In this document: positions 20,545 through 28,546 of the stretch, piece after piece
How positions within the stretch are numbered: the stretch's first letter is position 1
Layout of the letters: the number at the start of each line of letters is the position of its first letter
From: Bryobacteraceae bacterium
GTDB lineage: Bacteria > Acidobacteriota > Terriglobia > Bryobacterales > Bryobacteraceae
Length of the DNA stretch: 47,219 nt
NCBI GenBank assembly: GCA_028275505.1
Contig: JAPWUP010000009.1
Location: 1 to 47,219 of the forward strand
Reading direction: 5' to 3'
The notes under the pieces: generated by a model
The model's input: only the letters and a program-made list of their open reading frames with translations
Told to the model about the DNA's origin: nothing
The model's database searches: none
Position numbers and translations under genes: made by a program

Positions 20545-20639
20545 GTCCTTATTGTGCGGGAGACGAACGACGCCATGCGACTTTCCTGACCTTGTGGCCA
20601 CTATCTCTGGATGGACGCCTCCCTTTGCGGAGAAGCCGG

Positions 20640-22463
20640 ATGAACTGGCTGGACGGCTGGATAGCGGCGTGGCTCGCTCCCCTGGCGGTCTGGTTGCTCG
20701 TGAGCGGCCTCGATGACCTGTTTGTGGACTTCGTCTGGCTGGCAAGCTTGCTCCGGCGCAAGCTGAGACCCGCGGCATCCCTGACTCCGCCCGATCCCCA
20801 ATCGCTTGCCTCCGCTCCACGGCAGCGTATTGCCGTCTGGATCCCCCTGTGGCAGGAACATCGCGTGATCGGCCGCATGCTGGAGCGCAATCTCGCTGCC
20901 TGCCGCTACCAACCGGTGGATTTTTTCGTGGGGTGCTACCCGAACGATGAGCCCACTGTGGAGGCGGTGAAGGAAGTCTGCGGCCGCCACCCCAACGTCC
21001 ATATCGCGCTTTGCCCGCACGACGGACCGACCTCCAAGGCCGATTGTCTGAACTGGATTTACCAGGGGATGCTCGACTTTGAGCGCGAACAGGGCGTGCA
21101 CTTTGACATCATCGTGACCCACGACGCCGAAGACTGGATGCACCCGCTCGAGCTGGAGTGGATCAACTTCTACGCCCAGCGTTACGACATGGTGCAACTG
21201 CCCGTTCTGCCTCTGCCCACGCCGCACCGCTACCTGACTCACGGCGTGTACTGTGACGAGTTCGCCGAATACCAGCACAAGGATGTCCCGGTACGCCTGC
21301 GCCTCGGCGCGGCACTGCCCGGCAATGGCGTGGGTACGGGTTATACGCGGCGGGCCATCGAGCTGCTCGCCGCCTCCCACAACGGTCGGGTCTTCGAGCC
21401 GCGCGAGCTCACCGAAGATTACGCCAGCGGTTTGCGCCTTCGCAGACTGGGTTGCTCGCAATACTTTGCCGGAGTCCACTTGCTGGAGGGCGTGCCGGTG
21501 GCCACGCGAGAGTACTTCCCCCAGTCGCCGCGGGCCGCCATACGGCAGCGCAGGCGCTGGGTGACCGGGATCGCCTTGCAAGGCTGGGAGCAGTTCGGCT
21601 GGCGCGGCAGAGTCGCCGAGGTGTACTTCCTGTGGCGGGATCGCAAAGGCCTCATCGGCAATCCCCTCTCCGTGCTGGTCAATTTCATCTTTCTCTACGG
21701 CGCGCTGACGTGGATCGCGGCAGAGATTGCAGGTGAGGCCTGGGGATTCGGCCAGGCCGCGCACACGCAGTGGTTGCTGGCCGCAACCCTCGGCATGCAA
21801 TTGTGGCGCATGGCTGTGCGCTGCGTCCTGGTGGCGCGAATCTACGGCTGGGCCTTCGCCATAGGGTCGCCCTTGCGAATCCTGTGGGCAAACGCCATCA
21901 ACGCAGTGGCCACCGTGCAGGCGGTGTACGACTACGAGCGCGCCCGTCTGGGCAAGCGTTCCCTGGCGTGGCGCAAAACCGAGCATCGCCTGCCGCAGCG
22001 CGCGACCCTTGCCGACAACCGCAGGCGGCTGGGAGAGCTGCTCGTGGAGTCGGGCTGGCTCACCGCGCGCGATCTCGAACAGGCCCTGGCCTCCAAACCG
22101 GCGGATCTGCGCCTGGGCGAGTATCTCGTCCGGCTGCGCAAGCTGGACGAGCGCCAGGTCTATTCCGCTTTGAGCTCCCAGCAGGACCTGCCTTTGGAAA
22201 ACCTCCAGCCCGAGCAAATCCCGCCCGCCGTGGCTCGCAGCCTCCCTGCCCATCTGGTCGAGCGCTGGAAGGTGCTTCCGTTCCGGGTGGCTAGCGGCAA
22301 TCTGTTCGTGGCCAGCCCCGAACTCCCCAGCGAAAAACTCGAGCGCGAACTCCGCCAGCACACACGACTCGAAATTCGTTTCCATCTGGTGACCCCCAGC
22401 GATTTTCGCCGGCTGGCCGAGGCGTTGCTCGCAGGGTCAGAGAGCCCCGCCGCACATTCGTAG
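20640..22463 (+). CDS. nfrB: NfrB-like membrane glycosyltransferase with C-terminal MshEN-type domain
   Basis: 607 residues from ATG 20640. There is one N-terminal membrane span, then a GT2 domain with THDAEDWMHPLELEW (DxD-like), ELTEDYASGLRLRRLG and the (Q/R)xxRW-type segment RQRRRWVTGIALQGWEQ of processive synthases. Several membrane spans follow (about 340-430). The C-terminal part (about 460-600) is a GspE-N/MshEN-type domain, RRLGELLVESGWLTARDLEQ then LRLGEYLVRLRKLDERQVYS. E. coli NfrB (phage N4 adsorption protein B) has this architecture and is a c-di-GMP-dependent glycan synthase. The second MshEN motif here has Arg where Gly is usual (LVRLRKL), so ligand affinity could be altered. The substrate sugar is unknown. 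Confidence 0.85.
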   Translation: MNWLDGWIAAWLAPLAVWLLVSGLDDLFVDFVWLASLLRRKLRPAASLTPPDPQSLASAPRQRIAVWIPLWQEHRVIGRMLERNLAACRYQPVDFFVGCYPNDEPTVEAVKEVCGRHPNVHIALCPHDGPTSKADCLNWIYQGMLDFEREQGVHFDIIVTHDAEDWMHPLELEWINFYAQRYDMVQLPVLPLPTPHRYLTHGVYCDEFAEYQHKDVPVRLRLGAALPGNGVGTGYTRRAIELLAASHNGRVFEPRELTEDYASGLRLRRLGCSQYFAGVHLLEGVPVATREYFPQSPRAAIRQRRRWVTGIALQGWEQFGWRGRVAEVYFLWRDRKGLIGNPLSVLVNFIFLYGALTWIAAEIAGEAWGFGQAAHTQWLLAATLGMQLWRMAVRCVLVARIYGWAFAIGSPLRILWANAINAVATVQAVYDYERARLGKRSLAWRKTEHRLPQRATLADNRRRLGELLVESGWLTARDLEQALASKPADLRLGEYLVRLRKLDERQVYSALSSQQDLPLENLQPEQIPPAVARSLPAHLVERWKVLPFRVASGNLFVASPELPSEKLERELRQHTRLEIRFHLVTPSDFRRLAEALLAGSESPAAHS

Positions 22464-23138: not shown

Positions 23139-23570
23139 TCACCTGCCGGAAGATCCGAAGCCGGAAGTTCCGCGCCGCGAATCCCCTAGTTCCCCTTCTT
23201 CCCACTCCACCGGCTCGTACCGCGCGACGACCATCTGAGCAATGCGATCGCCGCGGCGGACCTGGTAGGGCTGCGACCCCAGATTGAGCAGGATCACGCG
23301 GATTTCACCCCGGTAGCCGGGATCTATCGTGGCCGGGCTGTTGGGTAGCGTGATGGCGTGGTTGAGGGCCAGACCGCTGCGTGGCCGGATCTGCGCCTCC
23401 CAGCCCGGGGGCAGCTCGATGGCAAGACCGGTTGAGACGGTAGCCGGCACGCCGGGCTGAAGCGTGACGTCCTCGCGTGCCCGCAAATCCATGCCCGCAT
23501 CCTCGGCGGGACCGTGTGCATATTCCGGCAGATATGCATCCGGAAAAAGCCGTTTGATCCTGACGCGCAC
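23139..23570 (-). CDS. dut: dUTP diphosphatase (dUTPase)
   Basis: 143 residues from GTG 23570. The trimeric dUTPase hydrolyses dUTP to dUMP and PPi, keeping uracil out of DNA and supplying dUMP for thymidylate synthesis. All five motifs are visible: [10 protein letters not shown] (1), [10 protein letters not shown] (2), [13 protein letters not shown] (3), [10 protein letters not shown] (4) and the C-terminal [11 protein letters not shown] (5). In motif 3 the usual first Gly is Ala. No Shine-Dalgarno is visible. The start lies 9 nt after a -10-like TATGAT, so the mRNA may have a very short leader. Its stop lies 4 bp beyond the tRNA end, on the opposite strand. It is divergent from the ThyX-like gene, with only 17 bp between the two start codons. 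Confidence 0.94.
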
Positions 23571-23578
23571 CGGATTAG

Positions 23579-23585
23579 TATCATA
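23579..23585. promoter_or_regulatory. Shared dut / thyX-like divergent promoter core
   Basis: TATCAT on the plus strand (23579-23584) overlaps TATGAT on the minus strand (23585-23580); both are 5/6 matches. The plus element lies 3 or 6 nt before the two in-tandem GTG codons of the ThyX-like gene, the minus element 9 nt before dut's GTG. The whole intergenic space is 17 bp, so promoter and start sites of both genes overlap. Confidence 0.5.
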
Positions 23586-23587
23586 GC

Positions 23588-25021
23588 GTGGTGGACAAGC
23601 CGTCTCGCGTCCTCGTACTCGCGCCGATGCCGCCGGAGGCCTGCGCGTACGCGTTGGCGCGGTACAGCCGTTCTCCCGATTCCATTCGCGAGTCGCTCGA
23701 ATGGGTGCGCCGGCACGATTCCCGCCGTTTCCTCGAGCATTACTATTTCCAGTACGGTCACGCCTCGATCGCCGATCTTGGTCACCTGGCGGTGTGCTTC
23801 GAGGGCGTCTCCGAGCTGGCGGCGACGGAAATTGAGGACGAGCCGTTGTGGGACGGACAGGCCAAATCATCGCGTTACCAGGATTACTCGCGCGCCCAGC
23901 CGGTCACGCCCCCCGAACTTACTGAAGAGCAGGCGATGACTTACCATCGCATCGCCACTCAATTACTGGCGACTTACTCGAAGGTCCACGCAGCAGTCCT
24001 TGGCGCCCTCCAGGAGCGCCTTCCCCGCCCTGCCGACATGTCGCCTGAAAGTTACCAGCGCAACCTCGCGGCGCGAGCCTTCGACGTAGCCCGGTATCTG
24101 CTCTTTCTCGGCGCGCCCACCAATGTCGGCCAGGTGACCAGCATCCGCACGCTCGAAAAACAAATCCGCCGCCTGAAGATCTCCGAGTATGCGGAACTGC
24201 GGGAATTGGCGGAGGAAATCGCCGCCGCGCTGGCCGCGCCGCCTGCCTGCACGTGGTATTCCGGCGTGCCCGCCGATCCCGTGGCGCCGACGCTTGCCCG
24301 CTTCGCCGGTCCCGACGAGTACCAGCGCAGCGTGCGCGAACAACTGCGTCTCTGGGCCCAGCAAAATCTCCCTGCACCGCAAGCCGTTGAGCCGCGCGCG
24401 GTAGATCTGGTCATGCCGCGCGACCCGGCCGCCGACGCCGTGGCTACGCTGCTCTATCCGGTGACCGACCGGCCCTATCGCGAGCTGTACGAAATGGCCG
24501 CAGGCTGGAGCCCGTCCATGCGCCGGGAAGTGCTGGAGCTGGCAACCCGCCCGCGCGGCGAACGGGACGAGCTGCCGCGGGCCTTCCGCAGCGCGCCGTA
24601 CGTCTTTGACATCGTCATGGACATCGGGGCCTGGCGCGACCTGCACCGTCACCGCCGCTGCCACCAGTACCGTCAGGCCTTCACCAGCCGGCTCGGTTAC
24701 GACACGCCGCCGATCCTGGGCGAAGTCGGGCTGGAGGCCGATTTTCGGCGCGCCATAGAAGAGGCGTTGACCGCGGCCGCGAGCCTTCCCGAACCCGCTT
24801 CCCACTATTTGCTGCCTTTCGCTACGCGCTCGCGCTTCCTCTTCAAGATGGACTTCGCCGAGGCCGATTACATCTGCCGGTTGCGCACCAGCGTCAAGGG
24901 CCACTTCAGCTACCGCCGGATCGCCTGGGAAATGAAGCAGGCTCTGGAGCGCGCGCAACCGGAACTGGGCCGGCTGATCCAAGCCACTCCGCCCTGGGTC
25001 GAGGATCCTCTGCGTCGCTGA
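23588..25021 (+). CDS. Double-length ThyX-like protein (FAD-dependent thymidylate synthase superfamily)
   Basis: 477 residues, about twice a ThyX subunit, with two ThyX-like halves. The N half (about 20-215) has [31 protein letters not shown] followed by SSRYQDY (94-100), matching the end of the ThyX signature; the RHR that should precede it is replaced by EPLW. The C half (about 240-470) keeps [11 protein letters not shown] with Arg354-His355-Arg356 but lacks the following Ser-x-Arg-Tyr. True ThyX makes dTMP from dUMP with FAD, NADPH and methylene-tetrahydrofolate. Each half here retains part of the motif, so it could be a fused pseudo-dimer or an enzyme with a new role. It starts with two adjacent GTG codons (23588, 23591) and no RBS. 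The divergent neighbour dut supplies dUMP. Confidence 0.75.
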
Positions 25022-27943: not shown

Positions 27944-28546
27944 TCATGCGATTGGGCCGCCGGCCAGGGGAATCCGGCGCTGCCGCTTCGTCTCCAGCAT
28001 GCGCTGGTCGGCCTCCTGCAAGCTGTCCCGGGCGGTCGAACCCGCCGGGATCGCCGCCACAGCCCAGCTCAGCCCCACCGAAGCGGGTCCGTGGTTGCGG
28101 ACATAAAAGTTTGCCAGCCGTCGCTCGAGCGCGCGCAGCCGGTCCTCCACCAGCGCCTGGTCTTCGGTCCGGAAGTAAATCACGAACTCGTCCCCGCCCC
28201 AGCGAAACGCACGGTCCTCCTGGCGGATCGAGCCGCGGATGAGCTGGCCGATGTCGCGCAGCACCTGGTCGCCGACGAGGTGCCCGTAGCGGTCGTTCAG
28301 CGCCTTGAAGTTATCCAGGTCGCAGACCGCCAGCAGACCCGCGCAGGGCTGCACCTCCTCGATCCATTTCTCCAGGGCCACGCGACTGGACAGTTCCGTG
28401 AGTGAATCGGTGTGAAGGTGACTTGCCGCGCGGGCTTCCAGCTCCTGCACCTGCTGCAGAAGCTGGCCCACACGCCGGCGTAGATCGAGGGCGTAGATTC
28501 CCAGCCCCAATCCCAGCGCGAGCGAAATGACCAGCAGAACCGTCAC
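27944..28546 (-). CDS. Membrane-anchored GGDEF diguanylate cyclase
   Basis: 200 residues. One N-terminal membrane span (about 3-20) is followed by a short coiled coil (RRRVGQLLQQVQELEARA) and a GGDEF domain from about 46. The active site WGGDEF is intact (GGDEF at 117-121), as is DLDNFKALNDRYGH for metal and nucleotide binding. The I-site RQED (108-111) lies exactly five residues before GGDEF, implying feedback inhibition by c-di-GMP. The opening is DSLTELSSR instead of DxLTGLxNR. There is no sensory domain beyond the anchor. It converges on the UlaG-like gene and lies 14 bp behind the YmdB-like gene. An NfrB-like c-di-GMP effector lies about 5.5 kb to the left. Confidence 0.92.
   Translation of the reverse strand: MTVLLVISLALGLGLGIYALDLRRRVGQLLQQVQELEARAASHLHTDSLTELSSRVALEKWIEEVQPCAGLLAVCDLDNFKALNDRYGHLVGDQVLRDIGQLIRGSIRQEDRAFRWGGDEFVIYFRTEDQALVEDRLRALERRLANFYVRNHGPASVGLSWAVAAIPAGSTARDSLQEADQRMLETKRQRRIPLAGGPIA

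Follow-up and report, generated by a model that had tools for sequence, protein, structure and literature searches.

A gene at positions 23588–25021 (forward strand) of the window, the whole 47,219-nucleotide stretch of Bryobacteraceae DNA analysed here, raises the question of whether a ThyX-like protein of double length, with its active-site motif divided between two halves, can still work as a thymidylate synthase. The first-pass annotation, made from the sequence alone, had offered two readings: a fused pseudo-dimer that rebuilds a composite site, or a protein that has acquired another flavin or nucleotide role. Sequence comparisons and genome context indicate that the product very probably functions as a thymidylate synthase and belongs to a common, poorly described fused subfamily.

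Both halves of the protein have a ThyX fold

The open reading frame starts with GTG and encodes 477 amino acids. The Pfam Thy1 profile (PF02511) matches it twice (52.6 and 44.4 bits), reaching 95 bits over the whole protein (E 6.5e-27, cut-off 24.8). By profile–profile comparison with hhalign, the N half (residues 1–250; 23588–24337, forward strand) and the C half (residues 253–477; 24344–25018, forward strand) matched single ThyX at 99.6 % and 99.4 %, respectively, and each other at 98 %. An AlphaFold2 model of the full protein was built with 65 family members (pLDDT 92.2, pTM 0.90), and its residues 10–245 fitted Mtb ThyX 3gwc with a Z score of 13.3 (2.9 Å over 201 residues). The C half modelled alone (residues 250–477, pLDDT 92.4) fitted 3fnn (Z 12.1, 3.7 Å over 150 residues) and Mtb ThyX 3hzg (Z 11.3, 3.0 Å over 145 residues, VIA-align). 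The description of a double-length ThyX-like protein is therefore borne out by the two PF02511 matches, by hhalign and by the models. Both halves fit solved ThyX structures, a comparison of the kind that the first-pass annotation had proposed, and its caveat that one half might not be ThyX-like does not hold. For the C-half model, Foldseek gave a global rmsd of ~12–13 Å, as against the 145 residues that VIA-align superposed at 3.0 Å; as modelled, the core of this half is ThyX, and a helical part may be shifted.

With the NCBI equivalog model TIGR02170, whose cut-off is 87.9, the protein scored 28.5 bits, so we regard it as a divergent ThyX lying under the cut-off of the standard model. Three of four phage or plasmid doubles also scored below this cut-off and one gave no match at all, while one Acidobacteriota double scored above it. 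A phmmer search of PDB sequences with the single 477-residue protein returned no match; the family profile matched 23 PDB sequences, none of which was a double ThyX.

The active-site residues are divided between the two halves

In Mtb ThyX, subunit A binds FAD through its RHR motif (residues 95–97), and its Arg95 and Arg199 also contact dUMP; subunit B holds the FAD phosphates through Ser71 and Arg190; and subunit C holds the same dUMP through Arg87, Ser105, Arg107 and the lid residue Tyr108 (PMC6514825). We refer to these contributions as roles A, B and C. In PBCV-1 ThyX, Ser88/Gln89 of one monomer lie opposite Arg182 of another (PMC3498832), and S88, R90, Y91 and R174 of Tm ThyX have roles in catalysis (PMC8316439). 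Because RHR and Ser/Arg/Tyr come from different subunits at each site, the ThyX motif, although continuous in sequence, serves two different sites. It never forms one site in space, and a fusion that splits it between two halves leaves half of the sites unharmed.

Alignment of the two halves, all features being on the forward strand, assigned role A to the C half, which carries RHR at residues 354–356 (24647–24655; Mtb 95–97, Tm 78–80) and the distal arginine R433 (24884–24886; Mtb R199, Tm R174), associated with dUMP activation. The N half has D84-E85-P86 (23837–23845), in ungapped alignment with Mtb R95-H96-R97, in place of RHR, and L196 in place of R433. When the N halves of the 65 A1 doubles were scanned over their first 150 residues, RHR was absent from all of them. 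Role B lies in the N half, with S60, the last residue of GHAS (residues 57–60, 23756–23767), and R187 (24146–24148). These correspond to Mtb Ser71/Tm Thr55 and Mtb R190/Tm R165, the FAD contacts from a third subunit (PMC6514825), and their C-half counterparts are R331 (24578–24580) and A424. Role C is also found in the N half, where S94, R96 and Y97 of SSRY (residues 94–97, 23867–23878) align with Mtb S105, R107 and Y108 and with Tm S88, R90 and Y91; these residues are lost from the C half. The N half also holds EGVS (residues 72–75) and R169 (24092–24094; Tm R147, Mtb R172), whose C-half counterpart is Y407. Three canonical positions are replaced in the double: Mtb R87, a dUMP contact, by E76, Tm E58 by D63 and Tm H59 by L64.

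The positions reported in the first-pass annotation (GHAS, EGVS and SSRY in the N half, RHR only in the C half) were confirmed, as was the division of the motif. RHR occurs only at 354–356 and S-x-R-Y only at 94–97, with no continuous stretch that contains both. Across both halves, the full set of FAD and dUMP ligands can be aligned, with the exception of Mtb R87. As judged from this alignment, each of the three roles is retained by one half of the 477-residue protein and lost by the other. The C half holds the canonical subunit-A set and the N half the Ser/Arg/Tyr set, which supports the reading of a fused pseudo-dimer that rebuilds a composite site.

The division is conserved in a large family of double ThyX proteins

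We aligned 72 doubles, of which 65 came from Acidobacteriota, the window included, and seven from plasmids and phages (Actinomycetota, Bacillota, Bacteroidota, a cyanophage, a Vibrio phage and a Tunturiibacter phage). R354, H355, R356 and R433 of the C half and S94, R96 and R169 of the N half were invariant in all 72. Position 60 was S or T in every double and Y97 was present in 71, with a single Y97F, and the C-half counterpart of S60, R331, was R or K in 66/72. The role-B arginine R187 lies outside this strict pattern, since it was R in just 46/72 doubles; it is kept in the lineage of the Bryobacteraceae gene. In these alignments, conservation of the residue division is far beyond chance. 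The same partition was seen in 24 phage proteins from IMG/VR, retrieved with a search pattern that required the C-half RHR (hence 24/24) and nothing of the N half: S94, R96 and R169 were present in all 24, S60 in 23 and Y97 in 22, and R433 was present in 23, with one gap. The layout of two Thy1 domains in a single frame, the C-terminal one with RHR and the N-terminal one with S-x-R-Y, was seen in the 72 doubles and, with few exceptions, in the 24 phage proteins. Many of the 24 IMG/VR contigs (L115–L138) are 200–530 kb long, corresponding to large phages.

Among 149 Acidobacteriota genomes, 114 had a Thy1 match and 76 had two; among the 76 are one single ThyX split by an intein and one gene broken by contig ends. 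In genome G097 (L107, 511–2586, reverse strand), Thy1 is interrupted within a 692-residue ThyX frame by ~400 residues with an HNH endonuclease and an intein-splicing-like end, probably representing an intein in a single ThyX and not a double.

The double-ThyX design is widespread in Acidobacteriota and large phages, and about half of the sampled Acidobacteriota genomes appear to rely on such a fused double as their essential thymidylate synthase. Despite the commonness of such fusions, the standard NCBI model scores the Bryobacteraceae protein below its cut-off. Judging from the sequences collected, the divided motif defines a large ancient family and is not peculiar to the gene at 23588–25021. 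The same length and layout recur in 35 loci at 59–80 % identity, the closest named related loci being from Bryobacteraceae.

These data also bear on whether the gene might be decayed or misassembled, either as a pseudogene or as two adjacent thyX copies joined by error. Each half does lack part of the motif, as such an origin would predict, but the frame contains no stops, the residues listed above are invariant, and the layout is repeated in the 35 loci, in other phyla and in phages, so that we give this explanation practically no credence. Misassembly, decay and chance were all rejected on the conservation of length, layout and invariant residues.

In a phylogenetic tree, the C halves formed one clade. 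Monophyly of the N halves was not rejected by an AU test run on a thinned sequence set (p-AU 0.495), and long branches joined one N-half group with Tm-like single ThyX. The N- and C-half subtrees showed largely mirrored branching, with the same main subgroups. The single C-half clade, the N-half clade that was not rejected and the mirrored branching fit one ancient duplication and fusion.

The gene is the only thymidylate synthase candidate found in its genome

The first-pass annotation had asked whether the genome also carries a normal thyX or thyA. The host genome measures 4.66 Mb at 98.9 % completeness, and in it we found no second Thy1, no ThyA, no FolA and no TK1-type thymidine kinase. 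The gene at 23588–25021 is the only thymidylate synthase candidate found, and its product appears to be the host's only enzyme for making dTMP. Across the 149 Acidobacteriota genomes, full-length ThyA (>300 bits) was detected in 29 and Thy1 in 114, with both in none, so that double ThyX occupies the place of ThyA in this genome and follows a phylum-wide exclusion. In agreement with this, ThyX has been reported in 6/6 Acidobacteria and ThyA in 0/6 (PMC5954106).

In a few Thy1 genomes, the ThyA family was matched weakly and over part of its length. Some double-ThyX genomes encode a partial, divergent ThyA-family protein, which scored 77–88 bits in two of them (G112:C161:2340–2843 and G130:C10:437851–438480). 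Four genomes (G037, G085, G113 and G122; family f28) had only weak thymidylate-synthase-family matches of 28–46 bits; G037 and G085 are recorded as lacking Thy1, and G113 and G122 are absent from the Thy1-positive list.

The divergent neighbour of thyX is dut (23139–23570, reverse strand), encoding a dUTP diphosphatase (TIGR00576, 155.5 bits; NF001862, 160.8 bits), for which we read the start as the GTG at 23570. Its product makes dUMP, the substrate of ThyX. In 33 of the 35 relatives, dut likewise adjoins thyX divergently. The double thyX of the Tunturiibacter phage lies beside a dCMP deaminase gene and that of the Euzebya plasmid near a dCTP deaminase gene. The likely start codons of dut and thyX are ~17 bp apart (23571–23587), and the spacing is similarly tight in relatives, for example L035 and L036 (of L033–L067), which implies either that the promoters sit inside coding sequence or that the true starts are further in.

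The other reading in the first-pass annotation was that the protein has acquired another flavin or nucleotide role. A protein of ThyX ancestry might, for example, methylate UMP as PolB does or be an unrelated flavin enzyme. Its divergence from the TIGR02170 equivalog model would suit such a change, and the ThyX fold can methylate UMP, as described for PolB (PMC5003785; PDB 4p5a/4p5b, which were among our structural matches). PolB, a UMP/dUMP methylase, has the ThyX fold in common with the double, but it is a single-domain protein of an antibiotic pathway. With another role for the double, the host would be left without a thymidylate synthase and without TK1-type salvage. The strict Thy1/ThyA exclusion across the phylum, the dut neighbour and the invariance of the residues of dTMP chemistry also oppose this reading, which we consider very improbable. 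Given the sole candidacy of the gene, the Thy1/ThyA exclusion and the dut and deaminase neighbours, de novo dTMP synthesis is by far the most likely role.

A proposed covalent pseudo-dimer with composite active sites

The alignments, models and genome context make it highly likely that the gene product works as an FAD-dependent thymidylate synthase in the form of a covalent pseudo-dimer, with composite sites formed from both halves. Weighing on the other side are the replacements at Mtb R87, Tm E58 and Tm H59, the incomplete conservation of R187 and the low TIGR02170 score. As to assembly, site geometry, stoichiometry and catalysis, we infer that two double chains would assemble into the usual ThyX-like tetramer of domains. 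If this geometry is kept, each dimer would likely have two complete and two dead sites. In each of the two composite sites, the C half would give R354-H355-R356, facing the FAD phosphate/ribityl and flavin, and R433 for dUMP activation, one N half would give S94, R96 and Y97, which would bind dUMP and provide the tyrosine lid, and S60/R187, for the FAD phosphates, would also come from an N half. The other two sites, combining the N-half RHR position with the C-half S/R/Y position, would be dead. NAD(P)H would reduce FAD, which would take the one-carbon unit from CH2-THF and pass it to dUMP, supplied in part by the neighbouring dUTPase.

Alternatively, the enzyme could be a thymidylate synthase with the whole site within one chain, either as a single pseudo-dimer or in a quaternary structure unlike the canonical tetramer. 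All three roles are indeed found in a single chain, but canonical ThyX sites draw on three subunits, and here the C half has role A while the N half has both B and C, so that two N-half domains would be needed per site. Since the two N-half contributions to one site come from different domains, a dimer of doubles is required if the tetramer geometry is kept, and we regard the one-chain arrangement as distinctly unlikely. A further idea within the dimer-of-doubles model, rather unlikely in our view, is that the dead sites, in which the C half has conserved R331, Y407 and R443, have been turned into regulatory nucleotide or folate sites, giving an allosteric control that homotetrameric ThyX does not have.

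Canonical ThyX/FDTS (PF02511, TIGR02170; TM0449, Mtb 2af6/3gwc) shares with the double the fold of both halves, the FAD- and dUMP-contacting residues and the exclusion of ThyA. Unlike it, the double has two fused domains, carries RHR and S-x-R-Y on separate halves, falls below the TIGR02170 cut-off and is predicted to have two of four sites dead. Doubles of the same length class, layout and residue partition occur in Microcystis phage Ma-LMM01 (YP_851034.1) and Tunturiibacter phage Tunturi_5 (XOB77493.1), and on plasmids of Miltoncostaea, Euzebya, Paenibacillus and Parabacteroides, but they differ from the Bryobacteraceae protein in sequence (~23–34 % identity). The models of the Ma-LMM01 and Bryobacteraceae doubles matched with a TM score of 0.77 over 474 columns. 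Where annotated at all, the phage and plasmid doubles are called FAD-dependent thymidylate synthase or thymidylate synthase.

Among open-licence papers, we found no description of fused, tandem, double or pseudo-dimer ThyX, or of divided sites. The ThyX of Chlamydia trachomatis (CT632) is, at ~530 residues, also of double length, and one member of the subfamily may therefore have been tested already: in 2005, Griffin et al. reportedly showed the chlamydial protein to be a thymidylate synthase. If CT632 is a double, activity of the fused subfamily would already have been demonstrated. The monomeric dUTPase of herpesviruses, from a family unrelated to ThyX, is likewise a duplicated, fused enzyme with motifs shared between its halves.

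If the composite-site model is correct, double ThyX would offer a clear natural example of how duplication and fusion can make a symmetric enzyme asymmetric, with each residue of an inter-subunit site fixed in the half that needs it. It would let one residue be changed without its symmetry mate, which is hard in homotetrameric ThyX, and such single-site changes would be of use in resolving contested steps in the catalytic cycle of ThyX.

Elsewhere in the window, 20592–22463 (forward strand) encodes a family 2 glycosyltransferase that carries an MshEN domain at its C terminus, and a GGDEF protein is encoded nearby at 27944–28546 (reverse strand); in other systems, MshEN is a cyclic-di-GMP-binding domain.
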